A DNA stretch of 64,000 nt. Origin: Anaerophilus nitritigenes (lineage in GTDB: Bacteria > Bacillota > Clostridia > Peptostreptococcales > Thermotaleaceae). The stretch covers positions 1 to 64,000 of the forward strand of contig NZ_RYYS01000043.1 of NCBI RefSeq assembly GCF_004138215.1, read 5' to 3'. The number at the start of each line of letters is the position of its first letter. Position 1 is the stretch's first letter. This document shows positions 1,541 through 11,340 of this stretch, piece by piece. The notes beneath the pieces were generated by a model. The model was not told the DNA's origin. It made no database searches and worked only from the letters and a program-made list of their open reading frames with translations. The translations under genes were made by a program, and so were the position numbers.

Positions 1541-2548
1541 TCAACATATTCTAGGTAGTAAATCTTCTGTATACATATTCAATATACGAGTACCTCCTAT
1601 CTCAGTTTTTAAATATACTTTATTTTTATTATCATCTATTACCTCTCCTATGATTGCAGAATCTTTTCCTAAAGGATTCCTTTTCATAGCTTCAAGTACT
1701 TTATAAGCATCCTCTCTTGATACAATCACTACGACTTTTCCTTCATTTGCTACATATAAAGGGTCCAATCCTAACATTTCACACATACTCATAACTTCCT
1801 CTTTCACAGGTAGATCTTCTTCATTTAAAACAATACTCTTATGACTACCTTCTATTATTTCATTTAGTGTTGTGGCTAAACCTCCTCTTGTTGGATCTCT
1901 CATCATTTTTACTTCTTTACTTATATTTAATAAATCATCAACCAATCTATTTAATACATTGCAATCGCTTTTTATATCTACATCAAAATCTAAACCTTTT
2001 CTTTGACTCATAATACACATGCCATGATCTCCTAATGTTCCACTTATGATTATTTTATCTCCCTTTTTTATATTATTGGCACATAAATATAACTCTTCAT
2101 CTTTTACAAAACCAATACCTGTTGTATTGATAAATATTCTATCTACACTTCCTTTTTCAACAACTTTTGTATCTCCAGCAATGATTTTTACATTTGCTTG
2201 TTTTGCCGTTTTAGCCATTGAACTCACTATCTTTTCTAAGATATTTATATCCAGTCCTTCCTCTATGATAAAACCCACTGTGATATACATTGGTTTTGCT
2301 CCACTCACAGCTAAATCATTTATAGTTCCACATATAGATAATTTTCCTATATCTCCTCCTGGAAAAAATATAGGTTTTATAACAAATGAATCTGTTGTTA
2401 CAGCTATTTTCCCATCTAGTTTTTGTAAAATACTAGAATCATTTTGTTGCAATAATATATCATTTTCAAAATGTTTATAAAATATATCTTTGATTAGTTT
2501 ATGGGTTGTCTCTCCCCCACTTCCATGTGATAATGTAATGACATTCAT
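1541..2548 (-). CDS. hypE: Hydrogenase maturation factor HypE
   Basis: HypE converts the carbamoyl group received from HypF on its C-terminal cysteine into a thiocyanate, the source of the CN ligands of the [NiFe] centre. The protein is 335 aa from the ATG at 2548, which has ATAAGGAG upstream. A longer reading frame to 2617 exists, but its extra 23 residues overlap hypD and lack a better ribosome site. The N-terminus ITLSHGSGGE is the family signature. The PurM-type ATP-binding region includes GDTKVVEKG and DPTRGGLATTLNE. The chain ends in PRIC, so the acceptor cysteine is the last residue. It is the last gene of the operon. Confidence 0.96.
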   Translation of the reverse strand: MNVITLSHGSGGETTHKLIKDIFYKHFENDILLQQNDSSILQKLDGKIAVTTDSFVIKPIFFPGGDIGKLSICGTINDLAVSGAKPMYITVGFIIEEGLDINILEKIVSSMAKTAKQANVKIIAGDTKVVEKGSVDRIFINTTGIGFVKDEELYLCANNIKKGDKIIISGTLGDHGMCIMSQRKGLDFDVDIKSDCNVLNRLVDDLLNISKEVKMMRDPTRGGLATTLNEIIEGSHKSIVLNEEDLPVKEEVMSMCEMLGLDPLYVANEGKVVVIVSREDAYKVLEAMKRNPLGKDSAIIGEVIDDNKNKVYLKTEIGGTRILNMYTEDLLPRIC

Positions 2549-2559
2549 ATGAAAACTCC

Positions 2560-3645
2560 TTATCTTATTCCATATTTGTAGTATGTAGAGCAAGTTCCTT
2601 CTTGTGAGATCATACAAGCTCCTATTGGATTTGATGGATTACAAATCTTAGAAAATAATTTGCATTGTGTAGGCTTTTTTAAACCTTTTAGTATTTCACC
2701 ACATAAGCATTCCTTATGAATAGAAGATTGTACTATTTTTATATTAAATTTAGATTTTACATCATAATTTCTATATTCTTCTTTTAACTCAAAGCCTGTA
2801 TCTTTTATTCTTCCAAAACCTCTCCATATACTATCAGAAGGAATAAATACTTCATGAATCATGGATAATGCTTTTTCATTCCCATTATATTCTACAATTC
2901 TATGATATATATTTTTCACTTCATACTCTTCTTTGCCTATCATTTTTACTAAAAAATATATAGCAGCTACTATATCACAATATTCAAAACCTGCTATAAC
3001 AGATGAAAAACTATATTCTTTAGATAAAATTTCAAAGGGTTTCACCCCTATAATCGTACTTACATGTCCTGGACATAAAAATCCATCTATATGAACTTCT
3101 TGATCCGTTACGATCTTCTTGATAACATTTGGCATTGTTTTTATAGATTGTAGTACACTAAAGTTCTTTATGTTTTCATTTTTAGCTTTATAAATACTAA
3201 GTGCTATGATTGGAGCTGTTGTTTCAAAACCTATTGCTAAAAATATAATTTCCTTATTGGGATTTTGTTTTGCAATTTTAAGGGAATCAAGAGGAGAAAT
3301 AACTACACGAATATCTTTTCCTAGAGCCTTCTCCATTTTAAGTGAACTATATGTTCCAGGAACCTTGACAATATCCCCAAATGTAGTAATGATTACATTA
3401 TTTCTTTTACAAAGTTGTATAGCTGTATCTATATAACTTTGAGATGTTACACATACTGGACAGCCTGGTCCTGATATTAAGTTTATATTTTCAGGCAATA
3501 AATCTCTTATTCCATTTTTAAATATTGACATAGTATGCGTTCCACACACTTCCATTATGGTTAGATCTTTTTTCACTTTATAAGATAGCTTATTTAATAT
3601 ATTCTTTGCTAATTGAGGATTTCTAAATTCTTCTATGTATTTCAT
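2560..3645 (-). CDS. hypD: Hydrogenase maturation factor HypD
   Basis: HypD is an iron-sulfur scaffold that, with HypC, assembles Fe(CN)2CO for the [NiFe] site. The 361-aa protein shows the family motifs CGTHTMSIF (34-42), GPGCPVC (59-65), CPGHVSTIIG and, near the C-terminus, the cysteine set for the [4Fe-4S] cluster (CLCGEIL, CKLFSKICNP, ACMISQEGTC). Length is typical. The start has GAGGG upstream. It sits 18 nt after hypC and 11 nt before hypE. Confidence 0.96.
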   Translation of the reverse strand: MKYIEEFRNPQLAKNILNKLSYKVKKDLTIMEVCGTHTMSIFKNGIRDLLPENINLISGPGCPVCVTSQSYIDTAIQLCKRNNVIITTFGDIVKVPGTYSSLKMEKALGKDIRVVISPLDSLKIAKQNPNKEIIFLAIGFETTAPIIALSIYKAKNENIKNFSVLQSIKTMPNVIKKIVTDQEVHIDGFLCPGHVSTIIGVKPFEILSKEYSFSSVIAGFEYCDIVAAIYFLVKMIGKEEYEVKNIYHRIVEYNGNEKALSMIHEVFIPSDSIWRGFGRIKDTGFELKEEYRNYDVKSKFNIKIVQSSIHKECLCGEILKGLKKPTQCKLFSKICNPSNPIGACMISQEGTCSTYYKYGIR

Positions 3646-3663
3646 AAATCATCCCTCTATAGA

Positions 3664-3879
3664 TTACTCTTTTAAAATATATTCAAACAATTCTACTGTT
3701 TTTTTTGCTTCTTCTTGATCTATTTTTTGTATAGCACATCCTGCATGTAATAAAATATATTCTCCTATCTGTAAACCATCTACCAAAGACGTATCTACTT
3801 TTGTCTTGACTCCTCCAAAGTTTACTAAAGCTTGATTTTCATAAACTTGTAGCACTTTAGCCGGAACTGCTATACACAT
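3664..3879 (-). CDS. hypC: Hydrogenase maturation chaperone HypC
   Basis: HypC is a small chaperone (71 aa) that carries the iron intermediate with HypD and delivers it to the large subunit. The start is chosen at 3879 because family members begin with Met-Cys and the Cys2 thiol binds iron. This gives MCIAVPAKV with TAAGGAGTG upstream; a longer frame to 3909 would bury that cysteine. The OB-fold core VNFGGVKTKVDTSLV and GEYILLHAGCAIQKID are clear. It begins 5 nt after the hypF stop, which suggests translational coupling. Confidence 0.95.
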   Translation of the reverse strand: MCIAVPAKVLQVYENQALVNFGGVKTKVDTSLVDGLQIGEYILLHAGCAIQKIDQEEAKKTVELFEYILKE

Positions 3880-3883
3880 CCTA

Positions 3884-6148
3884 TCACTCCTTACAATTGG
3901 CATTGGCAATAACTAATTGCCCCATACATATGCCACTATCATTACAAGGTATAAATTTATGGGTATAAACTTCAAAGCCTTGTAGAACTAATTTTTCACA
4001 AATCCCTTTTAATATTATTTCATTTTGAAATACACCACCGCTTAATGCAACTTTATATATATTATATTTTGGGGCAATGATACTACACATTTTCACTGAA
4101 AAGTCAATGACTGTATTATGAAATTTTTTAGATATAATACTAGCATTCATGCCTTCTTTCATATCTTTTATAATTCCTTTGATAATATGATCTGTATTTA
4201 TGACATACTTTTGATGGATATATTCTATATTGTAATTATACTGACTTTTCTCTTCTTCATCTGCAATATTTTCTAATCTTATAGCTGCTTCACCTTCAAA
4301 TGTTACTTTACCAATATATCCTGTTATTGCTGATATAGCATCAAAAAACCTTCCCATACTAGAACACTTTGGAGAATTAATATTGTTTTTTATAATAGAT
4401 AATATAGATTTTATATTTTTGTATTTTACAGTAAATGGTATGTTTTCATATATATCTTTTTTATACGTTTGATAAATATAACTGATAGCCATTTTCCATG
4501 GCTCTTTTGTGGCAGCATCTCCTCCAGGCATGCTTACTTCATTGATATGTCCAACTCTTTCAAAATCTTTATCATCACATATTAAAAATTCAGATCCCCA
4601 TATTTTTCCATCTGTTCCATATCCAACACCATCATAAGCAATTCCTATAATTTTATCTTTTATTTTGTTCTCCATCATACAACTTACTATATGTGCATGA
4701 TGATGTTGTACAGGTATTTTATTTATATTTTTTTTCTGTACGTATTTTAAGGACCAATAATTTTTATGCATATCATAGGCAATGATTTGAGGAGTTATAT
4801 TATAGATTTTTTCAAAATGAGATACACTATTTTTAAATCGATTGTATGTCTCTACATTTTCCATATCTCCTATATACTGACTTATAAATATATTTTGATT
4901 TTTAGATACAGCAAATGTATTTTTTAAATGTGATCCACATGCTAACGTATCTTTTATATTTGCCATATTCATACATATTGGAGCATATCCTCTAGCACTT
5001 CTTATCACTCTTTCTTCATTTAAAACAACTTTACTTACAGAATCATCTACTGGAATGTATATATCTCTATTATGAATTAATAAATAATCTACAATATGGT
5101 TTAGTTTCTTTAATGCTTCTTCATTCTTATAAACCATAGGAATTTTACTTACATTTGCACTAGTCATAATTAACACTTCAATACCTTCTTCAAACAATAA
5201 ATAATGAAGTGGCGTAAATGGAAGGATAACTCCTAACTGTTTCATATTAGGTGCTATATTATATGGTAAGTTTTCTTCTTTTTTATTTAAAAGCAATATA
5301 GGACGTTTATTACTAGATAGTATTTTTTCCTCTTTTTCATTTAATTTGCAATATTTTTTCACAGTATTTACATCTTTCATCATTACAGCTAAAGGCTTTG
5401 TAGGTCTACACTTTCTATCTCTAAGTGTTTGTATAACATTTTGATTTTTAGCATCACAAGTTAAATGAAATCCTCCTAACCCTTTTACTCCAACGATCAT
5501 ACCTTTTTTAATAAATTGGATAGTGCGTGTTATAGGATCATTACATGATATTCTATATCCAAATTTATCTACAAGCTCTACCTTTGGTCCACATTTTTCA
5601 CAAGCATTTGGTTGTGCATGAAATCTTCTATCTAACGGATTCATATATTCACGATGACACTCATAACACATTTGAAATTTATCCATAGTGGTTACAGCTC
5701 TGTCATAAGGTAATTTTTTTATGATTGAAAATCTAGGCCCACAATTTGTGCAATTTGTAAAAGGATATCTATATCTTCTGTTTTTCATGTCTTTTATATC
5801 ATTTAGACAATCATCACATATTCCTATATCCGGCGATATGAAAGTTATAGTATCCTCTTCTTCATCACTGTGTCTTATTTCAAAGCTTCTGTAGTTTATT
5901 ATTTCTTTATCTTGTATATATACTTCATCTATCTTAGATAAATTAGGAGATTTATGTTTTAAATGATCTATAAAATTATTAATACCACCTATTTTCCCTT
6001 CCACATCTATATATACACCCTCTGAACTATTTTTCACCCATCCCTTTAAATTGTTATATGTAGCAATTTTATACACAAAAGGTCTAAATCCAACCCCTTG
6101 TACGATTCCTTTTACTATTATATATTTTCTTATAGTATTTACTGAAAT
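3884..6148 (-). CDS. hypF: Carbamoyltransferase HypF (probable non-AUG start)
   Basis: HypF makes carbamoyl-adenylate from carbamoyl phosphate and passes the carbamoyl group to HypE. The order is acylphosphatase-like domain, two Cys4 zinc fingers (CDDC and CTNCG, CYEC and CEKCG), a YrdC-like domain (VKGLGGFHLTCDA) and a Kae1-like domain with HHHAH and GYGTDGKIWGSE. The first available GTG (6076) would cut off the acylphosphatase motif. The frame stays open upstream and encodes VKGIVQGVGFRPF, essential in the family, yet holds no ATG, GTG or TTG before the stop at about 6155. The best start is ATT at 6148, 8 nt after GGAGG, overlapping hypB by 10 nt and giving 754 aa. ATA codons are alternatives, and a sequence error cannot be excluded. 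Confidence 0.93.
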   Translation of the reverse strand: MSVNTIRKYIIVKGIVQGVGFRPFVYKIATYNNLKGWVKNSSEGVYIDVEGKIGGINNFIDHLKHKSPNLSKIDEVYIQDKEIINYRSFEIRHSDEEEDTITFISPDIGICDDCLNDIKDMKNRRYRYPFTNCTNCGPRFSIIKKLPYDRAVTTMDKFQMCYECHREYMNPLDRRFHAQPNACEKCGPKVELVDKFGYRISCNDPITRTIQFIKKGMIVGVKGLGGFHLTCDAKNQNVIQTLRDRKCRPTKPLAVMMKDVNTVKKYCKLNEKEEKILSSNKRPILLLNKKEENLPYNIAPNMKQLGVILPFTPLHYLLFEEGIEVLIMTSANVSKIPMVYKNEEALKKLNHIVDYLLIHNRDIYIPVDDSVSKVVLNEERVIRSARGYAPICMNMANIKDTLACGSHLKNTFAVSKNQNIFISQYIGDMENVETYNRFKNSVSHFEKIYNITPQIIAYDMHKNYWSLKYVQKKNINKIPVQHHHAHIVSCMMENKIKDKIIGIAYDGVGYGTDGKIWGSEFLICDDKDFERVGHINEVSMPGGDAATKEPWKMAISYIYQTYKKDIYENIPFTVKYKNIKSILSIIKNNINSPKCSSMGRFFDAISAITGYIGKVTFEGEAAIRLENIADEEEKSQYNYNIEYIHQKYVINTDHIIKGIIKDMKEGMNASIISKKFHNTVIDFSVKMCSIIAPKYNIYKVALSGGVFQNEIILKGICEKLVLQGFEVYTHKFIPCNDSGICMGQLVIANANCKE

Positions 6149-6813
6149 TCTTTATTCCTCCTCTTATCATTGATTTGACTCTCTAGATATTTACATAATT
6201 CATCTATACCTCTTTCTTCTCTACAAGAGACTTTAAAAATTTTTATATTTTCATTTAATGAATATACATCTTTATAAAATTCTTCTATATCAAAATCTGT
6301 AGAATCTATAAGGTCTATCTTATTGAGTATTAAGGCATTTGAACGTTGAAACATTGCTGGATATTTAAGAGGTTTATCATTTCCCTCCGTTACACTCATA
6401 ACTGTTATTTTCATATCTTCACTCAAATCATAAGATGCAGGACAAACTAAGTTCCCAACATTTTCTATAACTAAAAAATCTAAATTATTTATATCTATAT
6501 GCTCAAAAGCCTGGTCTATCATAGATGCATCTAAGTGACATGCTCCTCCTGTATTTACTTGAATAACATCTACATGATGCTTTTCTATTCTTTGTGCATC
6601 TTTCGTAGTGTATAAATCTCCTTCTATCACAGTCACATCCACGTTATGTTTTATATTTTTTATGATTTGCTCTAATACAGAAGTTTTTCCCCCTCCTGGA
6701 GCTCCTAATAAATTTATAGTAAATACCCCTTTATCCTTTAGAATTTGTCTATTTTTACTTGCAATGTCATCATTATTTTGTAATATATTTTTTTCTATTA
6801 ATATCTGTTTCAT
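6139..6813 (-). CDS. hypB: Hydrogenase nickel incorporation GTPase HypB
   Basis: HypB is a SIMIBI-class GTPase that with HypA inserts nickel into the hydrogenase large subunit. The 224-aa protein has a P-loop LLGAPGGGKTS (35-45), GDLYTTKDAQR, the metal-site region NTGGACHLDA and VCPASYDL, and the base-recognition motif LNKID. It lacks the N-terminal histidine-rich or CxxCxC nickel-storage extension of some HypBs, so nickel storage is not expected. It starts one base after the hypA stop behind GGGGGAG, and its end overlaps hypF. Confidence 0.96.
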   Translation of the reverse strand: MKQILIEKNILQNNDDIASKNRQILKDKGVFTINLLGAPGGGKTSVLEQIIKNIKHNVDVTVIEGDLYTTKDAQRIEKHHVDVIQVNTGGACHLDASMIDQAFEHIDINNLDFLVIENVGNLVCPASYDLSEDMKITVMSVTEGNDKPLKYPAMFQRSNALILNKIDLIDSTDFDIEEFYKDVYSLNENIKIFKVSCREERGIDELCKYLESQINDKRRNKEFQ

Positions 6814-6814
6814 T

Positions 6815-7156
6815 TTACTCCCCCTCTATCTTTTCTAATAACAATTCATACCCTGTTATAATATTTGAACTAAATTGATTACATTTTGGACATAATTTAT
6901 TTGTATAACAAATATAAAACGTTTCCCCACAATTATCACAATAAGCACTAGCCTTTACTTTTTGTATGATTAATTTTGCATTTTCACATATTGTTCCTTT
7001 AGATATCACTTCAAACGAAAATCTCAGTGCATGTTCTTCTACACAAGTAAACTCTCCTATTTTTAATAATATTTGATCTATTTTTTTTAGATTGTAGATT
7101 TTAATATTTTCATTTATGATTTCAAATACTTCTGTCATTACAGCTACTTCATGCAT
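6815..7156 (-). CDS. hypA: Hydrogenase nickel metallochaperone HypA
   Basis: HypA binds nickel through its N-terminal Met-His and docks with HypB. The start at 7156 gives MHEVAVMTEV, preserving His2. A GTG three codons earlier would add residues and block the site. The 113-aa protein has the Zn site CDNC (73-76) and CPKC (89-92). Its first codons overlap the end of the maturation protease gene by 8 nt, a typical coupled arrangement. Confidence 0.95.
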   Translation of the reverse strand: MHEVAVMTEVFEIINENIKIYNLKKIDQILLKIGEFTCVEEHALRFSFEVISKGTICENAKLIIQKVKASAYCDNCGETFYICYTNKLCPKCNQFSSNIITGYELLLEKIEGE

Positions 7157-7610
7157 TGAATTCACCCATTTTAATTTTTATTTTATTCAAAACCTCACTA
7201 CATATATCTTTAAATATAATTTGTAAATGATCTGAAAGATTTAAACTAAAATCAATATTACAAGCTTCAATACCAATTAAGTATCCTCTTATATGGATTT
7301 TATAATTTGTAATTATATGAATAAGACTTATTTCATGTTGCGAAGCAGTATGATTTAAATATCTTTTAGCCTCTTCAAATGAAAACAATGTGACTTTTCC
7401 TATTTTAAACCCTAAATATGTACTATCTACTATAATCACAAAATCATGATCATTTATTTTATTTAAACAATATACAAAGTCTGTTTCTCCAATAATCACT
7501 TCTATTTCTGAATTCAATTTCTTAATTTCATTTTTGATTTCTTCCAAAACATATAGTGCTACTCCATCATCACCCATAATTCTATTTCCTATAGCAATAA
7601 CTTTCATCAT
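7149..7610 (-). CDS. [NiFe] hydrogenase maturation endopeptidase (HyaD/HybD family)
   Basis: This 153-aa protease removes the C-terminal tail of the hydrogenase large subunit after nickel insertion. The N-terminus IAIGNRIMGDDGVA is the family signature with the nickel-sensing acidic residue, and the second conserved Asp lies in IIVDSTYLG, followed by the histidine segment TASQHEISL. The start (tandem ATG at 7610/7607) abuts the stop of its presumed substrate, the large subunit at 7613. The ribosome site is weak, so coupling is likely. Confidence 0.93.
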   Translation of the reverse strand: MMKVIAIGNRIMGDDGVALYVLEEIKNEIKKLNSEIEVIIGETDFVYCLNKINDHDFVIIVDSTYLGFKIGKVTLFSFEEAKRYLNHTASQHEISLIHIITNYKIHIRGYLIGIEACNIDFSLNLSDHLQIIFKDICSEVLNKIKIKMGEFNA

Positions 7611-7612
7611 AT

Positions 7613-9022
7613 TTAAACAACTCTTATACGAACATGATCATATTTGTCACTTGTAATATGAGTAGCACAAGAAACACACGGATCAAATGATCGAACGATT
7701 CTTCCTATCTCTACCGGATTTTTTATATCTTGAATATAAGTTCCCATTAACGCTTTTTCTACAACTCCCTTTATACCATTTGAATCTGTTGGTGATACAT
7801 TCCATGTTGTAGGGGTTATAATTGTATACCTTTTAATTTTTTTATTTTCTATAAATAACCAATGACCCAAAGCTCCCCTTGTAGTCCCCTTAAGTCCAAT
7901 ACCATATGCTTGATCTGGTATTGGATATTTTTCTTGTTTTGTAGGATCTAGTCTTATTTTTATTAAAAGATTTTCAATTGTATTACATATTTTCTCAGCT
8001 TCTAATGCTCTAGCAATGGTTCTATCCATAGTAGATACTCCTCTAGTATAATCTCCACTAATCCATACTCTAGCTAAAGGCCCTACTTCCATTGGATATC
8101 CATTATATCTAGGTGCTTTAATAAAACTGTATGCATTTTCTTTATGAATATCTGGCTCCACATATCCTTCTTCAGGTAAAATATCTACCTTATCTCCTTT
8201 ATACCAAGCATTGTATATATTTTCACTAATTTTATTCTCATCAAAAGGATATCTTTGATTATTTATTAGAATTGCTGGTTTTACATATATAAAAGGTGCA
8301 TTATAGTAGTTATCAAACACTCCATAGCTCATAAAGTTGCCATATCCTTTGCCATTATGAAAATAATCACTATAATATTTAGATATAATATAAACATCTT
8401 CTATCATAATATTTTTTATAAAATCCTTGATAGAAGCTAGTATTGATTTTAATTCTATAAATATGGATGCATCCATATTTACTGTAACACCACCAACAAA
8501 TACACCATGATTATGAGGAGCTTTCCCTCCAAGAATTGCTAGCATTTTATGAGCTTTTCTACTATATTTTATAGACTCTATGTAATGTTTACTTAATTTT
8601 TCATTGATCTCTTTAGGAAGTCTATAATCTCCATAAGATTCTTGATATAATGGATTGATTTGTGGACCTTTTACATAGTCAGGAAAAGTATATTGATAGA
8701 AATGTCTTAAATGATTTTGTAAAAATTCACAGCCATGAATCATATCCCTAATCATACTATCATTTTCATTAGGTACTACTTTTAATGCATTTTCAAGTGC
8801 TAGAGCTGATGCTATAGAATGTGCAGTTGAACAAATCCCGCATATTCTTTCAGTAAAATATATGGCATCTAGTGGAGGTCTTCCTTCTAACATTTTTTCA
8901 AACCCTCTAAAAAGCATCCCACTACTTTTTGCATCTACTACAACATGATTTTCTATATTGACTTCTATTTCTAAAAATCCACTGATTCTTGTAAGTGGAT
9001 TGATGATAATTTTATCCCCCAT
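7613..9022 (-). CDS. [NiFe] hydrogenase large (catalytic) subunit
   Basis: This 469-aa subunit carries the Ni-Fe(CN)2CO active site for H2 oxidation or evolution. The L1 motif RICGICSTAH (59-68) and the L2 motif DPCVSCATH (447-455) supply the four cysteine ligands. Processing after His455 would remove a 14-residue tail, so a maturation protease is needed and is encoded next door. Other family blocks are INPLTRISGFLEIE near the start and EVGPLARVWISGDY. The uptake-type architecture (full length, DPCxxCxxH) separates it from energy-converting Ech enzymes. The exact group should be set by phylogeny. Confidence 0.96.
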   Translation of the reverse strand: MGDKIIINPLTRISGFLEIEVNIENHVVVDAKSSGMLFRGFEKMLEGRPPLDAIYFTERICGICSTAHSIASALALENALKVVPNENDSMIRDMIHGCEFLQNHLRHFYQYTFPDYVKGPQINPLYQESYGDYRLPKEINEKLSKHYIESIKYSRKAHKMLAILGGKAPHNHGVFVGGVTVNMDASIFIELKSILASIKDFIKNIMIEDVYIISKYYSDYFHNGKGYGNFMSYGVFDNYYNAPFIYVKPAILINNQRYPFDENKISENIYNAWYKGDKVDILPEEGYVEPDIHKENAYSFIKAPRYNGYPMEVGPLARVWISGDYTRGVSTMDRTIARALEAEKICNTIENLLIKIRLDPTKQEKYPIPDQAYGIGLKGTTRGALGHWLFIENKKIKRYTIITPTTWNVSPTDSNGIKGVVEKALMGTYIQDIKNPVEIGRIVRSFDPCVSCATHITSDKYDHVRIRVV

Positions 9023-9036
9023 ATCATCATCCTCCC

Positions 9037-9909
9037 CTAATATCTTATAAATGGTTCCATAGCGTCAGGAAAACCATTTCTTGCACACCCTATACATGGT
9101 GTATTATCACCTATAGGCCAATTGATGCTATCATTCCATCTTCTTATAGGACACTCTGTTTTCGTAACAGGCCCTCTACATCCTAATTTAAACATACATT
9201 CCTTTTCCCCTAATTTTGTTGCAAATATCTCTTTATCGAAATATGATCTTCTTGGACATCTATCATGAATGGTAATCCCATAGAAAAGTATGGGTCTATT
9301 TTCTTGATCAAGTGTTGGTTTCCCAAAAGATATAATATGAGCTATGGTTCCTATGATCCATTGTGGATGAGATGGACATCCTGGAACTCTTATCACTTCT
9401 CTGTCTAAAAAATCATACACACTCTTACTTAAGGATGGATTAGGCCTTGCTGCTGAAGGTCCTCCATAGGATGCACATGAACCTACAGCTAAAACATAGT
9501 TTGCTTTTTTTCCTGCCATATCTACAGCTTTCATTCCTGTTATAAGTCTTCCTTTATATCTAGCGATCACATTATACAATCCATTATCTTTTGTAGAAAC
9601 TGCACCTTCTACCACAAGAATAAATTCCGTATCCAATGTTTCTAAGAACTTCTCAAATGCTTTTTCTCCCTCTTGTGCCATAAGACTGTTGTTGTACGTC
9701 ATATTTACCATCTTATTGAGAAAATATATTACATCTGGATCTTCTCCATTTAATAAAGATATAATATTTCCTGCACATCCACATGCCTCAATCCATATAA
9801 GATTCATTTTTTTCATTTTGTTTTGATTGATATATTCTATAGCTAAATCAACTATTTTTCTAGGAATTGTTCTTTTGCTATCTACTATGGGACACTTTGT
9901 ATGAAACAA
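9037..9909 (-). CDS. [NiFe] hydrogenase small (iron-sulfur) subunit, no Tat signal
   Basis: This subunit relays electrons from the active site through three Fe-S clusters. The 290-aa protein has the proximal-cluster cysteines (ACGCAGN, GSCASYGG, PGCPSHP) and distal plus medial motifs (HDRCPRRSYF, KECMFKLGCRGP, CIGCARNGFPD). It begins with TTG at 9909 behind GGAGG, and the N-terminus has no twin-arginine leader, so the enzyme is predicted to be cytoplasmic or bound through a partner. It lies between the large subunit and a cytochrome-b5-like gene. Confidence 0.95.
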   Translation of the reverse strand: MFHTKCPIVDSKRTIPRKIVDLAIEYINQNKMKKMNLIWIEACGCAGNIISLLNGEDPDVIYFLNKMVNMTYNNSLMAQEGEKAFEKFLETLDTEFILVVEGAVSTKDNGLYNVIARYKGRLITGMKAVDMAGKKANYVLAVGSCASYGGPSAARPNPSLSKSVYDFLDREVIRVPGCPSHPQWIIGTIAHIISFGKPTLDQENRPILFYGITIHDRCPRRSYFDKEIFATKLGEKECMFKLGCRGPVTKTECPIRRWNDSINWPIGDNTPCIGCARNGFPDAMEPFIRY

Positions 9910-9925
9910 TATAGATCCTCCTCTT

Positions 9926-10360
9926 TTATTTCCTTAAAATCCCCACTTTGGGTAAATTTCTTAAAATTTCTTGTTTATTTCCATGACAACTCATGAATTG
10001 ATTTGTTAAATCTTTTCCTGCATATAAGCCAAAATGAGTACCTCCACCCCATGTAGCCTCTATGCTCAGATCATAAACAATCCCATTGACTGCTACATAT
10101 GCTGGTTTAGCATTTGATCCGTCATATTGAGATAATTCTTCTATTGTAAACTCTTTTTGATTTTTAAAATTGTCTTGTTGACTATTCATATTATTTGCAT
10201 ACTTCATTAGTTGTCTTAGTTTATTTGTTTCATATGTTAAAAGCTCATAATAGTAAAATTTTTCATATATACATAAAACAAAATTATCTATTTTTTGTAA
10301 ATAGTTTATTGTTTCAGTACTTTCATAAATTTTTAATTTTATATATTCATTATGGTTCAC
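9926..10360 (-). CDS. Cytochrome b5-like heme-binding domain protein of the hydrogenase operon
   Basis: This is the first gene of the hydrogenase operon, 16 nt before the small subunit. The C-terminal ~75 residues form a cytochrome b5/steroid-binding-type fold: EFTIEELSQYDGS, AYVAVNGIVYDLS, then WGGGTHFGLYAGKDLT with one candidate axial His, and MSCHGNKQEIL with a second. The N-terminal ~65 residues are helical and charged, with no export signal or membrane helix. Start is GTG at 10360, 8 nt after AGAGG; a GTG at 10369 overlaps the ribosome site. Inference: it may be an electron acceptor replacing the membrane cytochrome b of typical uptake hydrogenases. Whether it binds heme needs experiment. 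Confidence 0.85.
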   Translation of the reverse strand: MNHNEYIKLKIYESTETINYLQKIDNFVLCIYEKFYYYELLTYETNKLRQLMKYANNMNSQQDNFKNQKEFTIEELSQYDGSNAKPAYVAVNGIVYDLSIEATWGGGTHFGLYAGKDLTNQFMSCHGNKQEILRNLPKVGILRK

Positions 10361-10457
10361 CTGATCCACCTCTTATTTTCAAGAAAATATATCCCCTAAT
10401 CACATCCCTATCTTTTAATAAATATTAGATGGTGTCATATTTTATGACAATAAAATA

Positions 10458-10486
10458 ACCGTACTAAAATAGTCATCTAGTACGGT
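10458..10486 (-). terminator. Hairpin, probable terminator of the DUF421 gene
   Basis: Arms ACCGTACTA (10458-10466) and TAGTACGGT (10478-10486) pair perfectly. On the minus strand the stem is followed by TATTTTATT. It lies between the DUF421 gene and the hydrogenase operon, whose promoter should be in 10370-10457. Confidence 0.65.
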
Positions 10487-10488
10487 AC

Positions 10489-10560
10489 CTATAAAGTATT
10501 TCTAGCTACAGAATAGAAACTGATCTCTTCTCCTTGATACCAAGTTCCATCAATATTCAT
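10489..10560 (-). pseudogene. Short cupin-like relic or 23-aa ORF
   Basis: A 23-codon frame starts with ATG at 10560, overlapping the end of the DUF421 gene, and ends at 10489. Its middle, YQGEEISFYSVARNTL, resembles the intact cupin's DQGEEISSHSAGGDAL, and the DNA shares CTTCTCCTTGAT plus flanking bases with 19458-19470. Its first codons MNID also resemble the cupin's N-terminal KNID. It may be a second decayed cupin copy with an internal deletion. The match is short, so chance is possible. Confidence 0.4.
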
Positions 10561-11290
10561 GATAAGTTGATATGCTCATCTCTCCTTTTTTGTTTATAGA
10601 TGCATAAAATATTTCACTATAACTACTAATTCCTTGTTGTTTTAATTTATTTTCTATTCCTTCTTCAGAAAAACCTAATTTTTCTATTTTATCTTTTTGT
10701 AATTTACCATCTATAATTATAGAAAAATAAATATTAGACTCTGGTATGACTTTATTCATATCTTTAATAGTTATATTTTCATACTCAGGCTTTTTAAGTA
10801 TAGATAGGTTGCCATTTGATTCTATTATTCCGTAATCCACTTTATTTATATCAAAAATATCTTTTTCTCTTAATAACATTAAAATATCATGTATCGTATA
10901 ATTAATTTTTTTAATATTTGAATATATAAATTTACTGTTTTTTATGATGATCGTAGGTTCAAAAGTGATTGTTTTTCTTACTCGATTGCTCTTAGTCATC
11001 CAAAACCCTATTAATCTCTGAAATATTGAAAGTATAATTACAGAAAAAGCAGTAGGAAGGTGTTTAATTTCAGGATCAGCAATATCTGCACCCACAATAG
11101 CTCCTATTACAATAATAGATAAAAAGTCAAATACTGGTAATTCTCCTATAGGCCTCTTTCCCATAATAAATAAGGTTGAAAATAATAAAAGAAGCATAAT
11201 AGAAACAATTCTAAAAAATATAATAATATACAAATCCAACACTTTCACCTCATTAACTTGCAAAGTACTAAATCTCTTTATGTTATTCAT
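10550..11290 (-). CDS. DUF421 (YetF/YcaP-like) membrane protein
   Basis: A 246-aa protein with about three N-terminal membrane helices (residues ~20-100). It carries the DUF421 signature MGKRPIGELPVFDFLSI and GADIADPEIK, followed by a cytoplasmic alpha/beta region. Unlike the DUF421 protein at 32727 it has no C-terminal DUF1657-like segment. The function of the family is largely unknown; several members are tied to spores or envelope stress. The start is uncertain: ATG at 11290 has only a weak GGGA upstream, and TTG at 11302 is possible. It may be cotranscribed with lipBA, 50 nt upstream with no terminator between. Confidence 0.85.
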   Translation of the reverse strand: MNNIKRFSTLQVNEVKVLDLYIIIFFRIVSIMLLLLFSTLFIMGKRPIGELPVFDFLSIIVIGAIVGADIADPEIKHLPTAFSVIILSIFQRLIGFWMTKSNRVRKTITFEPTIIIKNSKFIYSNIKKINYTIHDILMLLREKDIFDINKVDYGIIESNGNLSILKKPEYENITIKDMNKVIPESNIYFSIIIDGKLQKDKIEKLGFSEEGIENKLKQQGISSYSEIFYASINKKGEMSISTYHEY

Positions 11291-11340
11291 TACTATTCCC
11301 AAAAGTTATGGATTGTATAACAACTATAATCACAATTTTA

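Follow-up and report, generated by a model that had tools for sequence, protein, structure and literature searches.

A cytochrome b5-like protein paired with a clostridial [NiFe] hydrogenase: a likely electron partner with a possible link to sporulation

Which protein receives the electrons of a [NiFe] hydrogenase whose operon opens with a gene for a cytochrome b5-like protein? The question is raised by a stretch of 64,000 nucleotides from Anaerophilus nitritigenes (the window), in which a sequence-only reading had placed such a gene at the head of a [NiFe] hydrogenase operon. The open reading frame, the PF00173 match and the run of genes on the same strand all agree with that placement.

Hydrogenase operon, enzyme location and proximal cluster site

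The genes lie on one strand in the order b5, small subunit, large subunit, maturation protease, hypA, hypB, hypF, hypC, hypD and hypE:

9926..10360, minus strand: cytochrome b5-like protein, 144 aa (GTG start at 10360, alternative GTG at 10369; PF00173 E 2e-11)
9037..9909, minus strand: [NiFe] hydrogenase small subunit, TTG start, without Tat leader (TIGR00391 above cut-off, PF14720, PF01058)
9766..9777, minus strand: proximal-cluster motif C45-A-G-N48 of the small subunit, CxGN and not CxGC (alignment to 1frv; homologue counts)
7613..9022, minus strand: [NiFe] hydrogenase large subunit (PF00374 E 2.5e-110)
7149..7610, minus strand: hydrogenase maturation protease (PF01750, TIGR00072 above cut-off)
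6815..7165, minus strand: HypA (TIGR00100 above cut-off)
6139..6813, minus strand: HypB (TIGR00073 above cut-off)
3884..6076, minus strand: HypF (TIGR00143 above cut-off)
3664..3909, minus strand: HypC (TIGR00074 above cut-off)
2560..3645, minus strand: HypD (TIGR00075 above cut-off)
1541..2617, minus strand: HypE (TIGR02124 above cut-off)

The b5 frame opens at 10369, and the GTG at 10360, which has the better-placed ribosome-binding site, gives the product of 144 aa. Its Cyt-b5 match exceeds the gathering cut-off of the profile search, and the gene is the sole PF00173 gene of the whole genome (3.06 Mb, 99.5% complete). The large subunit carries both nickel motifs, L1 (RxCGxC, here RICGICSTAH) and L2 (DPCxxC, here DPCVSCATH), and is nearest to NiFeSe-type models in the profile search.

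It had also been stated from the sequence that a Tat leader is missing from the small subunit and that there is no membrane cytochrome b, which was taken to suggest a cytoplasmic hydrogenase. The small subunit begins with an ordinary extension and no twin-arginine leader, and in the predicted model a helix (7-28) stands where the leader would be. Profile searches of the whole genome found neither TatC nor a hydrogenase cytochrome b (Ni_hydr_CYTB, PF01292), which extends the second claim from the operon to the genome. With the leader, TatC and Ni_hydr_CYTB all absent, the enzyme is very probably located in the cytoplasm and unable to use the usual membrane cytochrome b. A study of clostridial acetogens found a Tat leader on none of their hydrogenases and classed them as group 1a (PMC9431212); these acetogen enzymes would belong to the same family as the one in the window.

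The site of the proximal cluster in the small subunit is altered. In alignment with 1frv, Cys45 falls on the first of the proximal ligands, and Asn48 stands in place of the second. The set of 95 small subunits, one of them masked at this site, left 94 readable homologues, and position 48 was Asn in 90 of these, Gln in two, Glu in one and Cys in one. The single Cys belongs to the Tat-type control (L139), the second small subunit of genome G338, which carries an RR leader. The Cys/His ligands of the medial and distal clusters are all present in 95/95, and 91/93 share an extra Cys6 in the N-terminal extension. The AlphaFold model gives the cluster-binding C-terminal part of the small subunit at low confidence and is therefore silent on Cys6 and on the proximal site. 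The nearest solved small-subunit families are the Desulfovibrio [NiFe] and [NiFeSe] hydrogenases (1frv, 4kl8), which share the medial and distal ligands, while the window's enzyme has Asn for one proximal Cys and, in addition, the conserved Cys6. The Desulfovibrio enzymes, unlike this one, are exported, and they use c-type cytochromes.

The b5 domain and its pairing with the hydrogenase

The b5 protein of the window consists of two parts, with the candidate heme ligands in the second:

10163..10360, minus strand: N-terminal two-helix hairpin, aa 1-66, variable in relatives (AlphaFold helices 3-27 and 31-66, confidence mostly high)
9935..10147, minus strand: b5 domain, aa 72-142 (PF00173 positions 1-73 of 74)
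10034..10036, minus strand: codon of His109, candidate heme ligand (invariant in 54 linked b5 proteins)
9983..9988, minus strand: codons of Cys125 and His126, the latter a candidate second heme ligand (both invariant in 54 linked b5 proteins)

The profile search found no domain other than PF00173, and the AlphaFold model (mean pLDDT 89) shows the hairpin and a b5 fold. The nearest solved folds are two archaeal b5 domains, 6nzx from Hadesarchaea (E 1.8e-8, 46% identity in the structural alignment) and 6vz6 from Methanococcoides burtonii (E 9.7e-8, 36% identity), followed by bovine b5; 1cyo is among the fold matches. Both archaeal proteins are similarly compact, but their PDB entries are single domains of 76-78 residues, with no N-terminal hairpin such as that of the window's b5. 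We know of no hydrogenase link for either of them.

Two candidate axial histidines had been pointed out in the sequence. Both H109 and H126 proved to be invariant across the 54 linked homologues, as are L76, Y88, Y96, W104, G115, D117, C125 and G140, and the heme would probably be held by this pair of histidines. H109 stands outside any canonical HPGG motif. PGRMC1, a MAPR-type b5 (structure 4x8y), is a weaker fold match, and the position of its axial Tyr falls beside H109 in a part of the alignment that is ambiguous. The clostridial b5 proteins of the order that are not linked to a hydrogenase are mostly of another kind, namely lipoproteins (e.g. L012, L020, L027; L and G numbers are our handles). 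They share the PF00173 domain with its W, His and AG.D motif but have a lipobox and PH replacing CH, and no hydrogenase adjoins them in the stretches examined.

As to the supply of heme, AhbD (TIGR04545) scored below its cut-off and was rejected as the only evidence for heme synthesis; we therefore checked the flanking ahbA/ahbB. AhbA and AhbB are both encoded in the genome, above their cut-offs, and next to them lie two radical-SAM genes, of either AhbC/AhbD or NirJ1/NirJ2 type, that do not reach theirs. Together, these genes make heme b derived from siroheme plausible. In the acetogen study, candidates were found for only some of the heme-synthesis genes (PMC9431212).

The sequence-only reading had regarded b5 as the hydrogenase's companion, had suggested a search for the pair across Clostridia and had named its absence from related genomes as a ground for refutation. 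Such an absence is decisively contradicted: the pair is widely present there, which supports a conserved b5 partner. In the order sample (148 genomes, small subunits of at least 56% identity counted) b5 was found at the same locus for 13/13 small subunits, and in 12 of the 13 loci the gap between the two, measured from domain to domain, is no more than about 40 bp. The exception is L007, from genome G043 of the window's genus, where a methyltransferase-like gene separates the two. A linked b5 also accompanies 11/13 further small subunits of the same type in the class sample and 9/9 best matches outside the class (phylum sample, 53-70% identity). Among 80 loci in a scan of named genomes 69 have b5, directly upstream of the small subunit in 59, downstream of the large subunit in nine and divergent in one; the remaining 11 have none, one of them at a contig edge. 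Even where the locus has no b5, 12 of 13 such genomes carry a PF00173 gene elsewhere according to the genome search, and among the 11 named ones nine have a hydrogenase-type b5 copy (sequences judged by eye). Genome G427 has only a secreted-type b5. In G432, a Haloplasma-labelled MAG (L092) with a hydrogenase of 71% identity and SpoIVA, no b5 was found anywhere in the genome. A decayed b5 copy with two stop codons still adjoins the small subunit in G386. The distances between b5 proteins correlate with those between small subunits (r 0.64, Mantel p 0.0005). These patterns argue strongly that b5 and the hydrogenase function together, and as judged from the sequences b5 is likely to be the electron partner of the enzyme.

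PMC9431212 had noted a b5 neighbour of the hydrogenase in three acetogens only (C. carboxidivorans, C. drakei and C. scatologenes), while we find it in C. ragsdalei P11 as well, where it lies downstream of the large subunit (L080:7719-8129, plus strand). The fusions, the CxGN site and sporulation are not treated in the accessible part of that paper.

Some loci show further peculiarities. A methyltransferase-like gene of one kind adjoins the hydrogenase in two distant genomes (L007:1729-2358 and L138:5454-6023). In L015 (genome G032, 40-1899) the gene directly after a hydrogenase-type b5 encodes a large subunit; a small subunit is missing from between the two, and none was found in this draft genome at the cut-off used. 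L088 has tandem b5 genes (3235-3804 and 3876-4874), which show long Gly/Thr repeats and a C-terminal domain (DDW..YITP); among copies related to these, some have lost the histidines.

Fusions and ferritin-like neighbours

Gene fusions give the best hint at the electron acceptor that the sequences offer. One MAG encodes a hydrogenase-type b5 joined to a complete rubrerythrin, rubredoxin domain included (L143:724-1566, minus strand; NF045767 above cut-off), which suggests that electrons may pass from b5 to rubrerythrin; the b5 of the window differs from this relative in having no such fusion. In L120, whose sequence is present in the order sample as L008, a rubrerythrin/Mn-catalase-like domain is fused to b5. 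The N-terminal region of the L099 b5 was judged ferritin-like solely from its resemblance to a neighbour gene in L101, with no Pfam call of its own; that neighbour matches Rubrerythrin with E 3.8e-9. Ferritin-like genes adjoin the hydrogenase in L087 and L101, two loci with no linked b5. The other fusion joins the pair itself: in G014, a single-contig genome, b5 and the small subunit form one frame of 440 aa (L009:1273-2592, plus strand), which has lost both the stop codon and the ribosome-binding site that are present in L010.

Most b5 proteins, the window's included, have no recognisable diiron site, so that a peroxidase step would be indicated by few fusions. A diiron site in the hairpin of the window's b5 was considered and rejected: its ligands were not seen, and the likeness to hairpins of encapsulated ferritins is topological and not significant (E 0.3-0.7).

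Promoter element, sporulation and competing readings

A sequence element, CATATAATTTA, is enriched upstream of b5 across the family. Of 70 b5 upstream regions, 14 contain an exact copy of CATATAAT, for the most part 35-39 bp ahead of the b5 start; Markov shuffles lead one to expect 0.4. Unseeded EM on 50 non-redundant upstream regions yielded CATATAATTTA / gCATATAATTTA with a log-likelihood of 116, compared with 35-42 in shuffled sets. The most constant parts of the element are CATA and the trailing TTTA, and conserved columns at -21 to -17 fit ATA/T-N16-CATA. A PWM exceeded 9 bits in 37/70 b5 upstream regions and in 18/572 other ORFs of the same loci (Fisher p 3e-27). Since the PWM had been trained on 26 of these 70 regions, the count is circular in part, and related sequences in it are not independent. 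L007, from the window's genus and outside the training set, scores 14.8 at -36. A CATA-type -10 with a matching -35 is thereby seen family-wide and the -10 in L007; in the window it is weak:

10361..10549, minus strand: operon upstream region, with weak matches to the CATATAATTTA element, e.g. CATAAAATATG and CATCTAATATTTA (PWM 6.5)

The mapped sigma-E promoter of C. difficile spoIIID is ATA-N16-CATATATA, and the mapped mother-cell promoters of sigK are CATATTAT and CATATAAT (PMC3789822). The family element ATA/T-N16-CATA resembles the first, and CATATAAT/CATATTAT resemble the sigK promoters. Expression of the [NiFe] cluster of C. beijerinckii is highest at T4-T5, the stages described as bright prespores and spore septum, and low during H2 production (PMC6362236); this lineage appears to fall in a clade whose b5 is mostly unlinked. 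SpoIVA was present in 46/47 carriers tested and in 14/14 carriers of the class sample compared with 208/291 genomes overall (p 0.008, which ignores kinship), a weak test because SpoIVA is so common in the class. On the whole, the view that the operon belongs to the sporulation programme has moderate support.

We consider the most probable account, with a probability of roughly 0.55, to be that of a cytoplasmic group-1-type [NiFe] hydrogenase with a dedicated b5 electron partner, linked to sporulation and having a ferritin-like protein as its likeliest acceptor. H2 would be split at the large subunit, and electrons would run through the proximal site with its CxGN alteration, the medial and the distal cluster to the b5 heme, with His109 and His126 as candidate ligands, and from there to a one-electron acceptor. 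In most clostridia carrying it, the operon would stand under a mother-cell-type promoter, that is, in the sporulation programme. The likeliest acceptor may be a ferritin-like (diiron) protein that reduces peroxide or O2 in the mother cell or the spore envelope; that electrons end on peroxide or O2 through such proteins is our hypothesis, drawn from the few fusions.

Expression data from another clostridium could be read differently, namely that hydrogenase and b5 recapture H2 in stationary phase and return the electrons through a soluble reductase to general metabolism (redox balancing, solvents), with nothing specific to the spore. C. acetobutylicum mbhSL is expressed throughout stationary phase (PMC2530871), and in an asporogenous, high-butanol strain its expression is up, not down, and the H2 yield lower (PMC3044671); the three [FeFe] hydrogenase domains encoded in the genome of the window could supply the H2. 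These mbhSL genes, however, may lie outside the b5-linked subfamily, the mother-cell-type element is strongly enriched upstream of b5, no reductase gene was evident among the neighbours inspected, and the fusion partners are ferritin-like. We consider recapture a possible but rather unlikely explanation.

The sporulation link itself would be an artefact if CATATAATTTA were a vegetative sigma-A promoter, and CATATAAT does include the vegetative -10 TATAAT. We find this improbable, since the deviating loci mostly retain CATA and the trailing TTTA while TATAAT varies (CATAAAATTTA, CATATGATTTA, CATAGTATTTA, CATATATTTAA), and since no TTGACA-like columns are present upstream, where the conserved columns instead fit ATA/T at N16. 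The use of CATATAAT and CATATTAT by mother-cell promoters of C. difficile and the RNA-seq timing in C. beijerinckii also speak against it.

The N-terminal regions of b5 bring in another reading, in which the protein is mainly a tether or assembly factor that anchors the hydrogenase to spore layers, with heme transfer secondary or absent. These regions differ among relatives (CPY-motif hairpins, Tyr/Cys-rich stretches, GPTGG[IV]T heptad repeats) and in several lineages resemble low-complexity spore-surface proteins, while the b5 domain is conserved; one b5 is fused to the small subunit, and some copies (L142, L145) have lost both histidines. A pure tether would need none of H109, C125 and H126, which are nevertheless invariant in the 54 linked copies; a few copies, such as L045, have almost no N-terminal region, and the fusion partners are redox enzymes. 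A mainly tethering role is thus distinctly improbable.

Mere co-inheritance of neighbouring genes, which is conceivable since gene order is heritable without function and many carriers are related, was rejected as hardly credible given the same pairing in other classes, the b5 position that varies by lineage (upstream, downstream of the large subunit or divergent), the b5 kept elsewhere by nearly all genomes with a b5-less locus, and the one-frame fusion.

The dedicated, sporulation-linked b5 partner is our preferred reading, and the evidence suggests that the pair is made during sporulation, where it possibly converts H2 into protection from O2. A bolder version of it, an H2-powered O2 scavenger in or around the forming spore, built from the CxGN hydrogenase, a b5 heme as relay and a peroxidase of the ferritin-like or rubrerythrin kind, the b5 N-termini serving as adaptors to spore layers, is tentative and, in our opinion, doubtful as a whole. 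If the preferred reading is true, a widespread clostridial hydrogenase gains a partner and a time of action, [NiFe] H2 oxidation becomes tied to sporulation, and a class of bacterial b5 proteins obtains a function in anaerobes thought to need little heme. It would also offer a testable account of how strict anaerobes shield the developing spore from O2, and the proximal site, with its CxGN motif, departs from textbook [NiFe] enzymes in a way that can also be tested. The scale of the pairing, the fusions and the sporulation link appear to be new in the literature searched, which covered few subscription journals; within it we found no spore hydrogenase papers on this enzyme and no link of [NiFe] H2 oxidation to sporulation.

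Two minor observations concern the surroundings of b5. In Lacrimispora-type b5 proteins (L103, L104, L106-L109, L116, L118) Gly/Pro/Thr-rich repeats, mostly GPTGG[IV]T heptads, link the N-terminal helix region to the b5 domain. Upstream of b5 in the window, at 10550-11302 on the minus strand, a DUF421/YetF membrane protein is encoded; the sigma-G regulon of C. difficile includes a DUF421 gene (PMC3789822).
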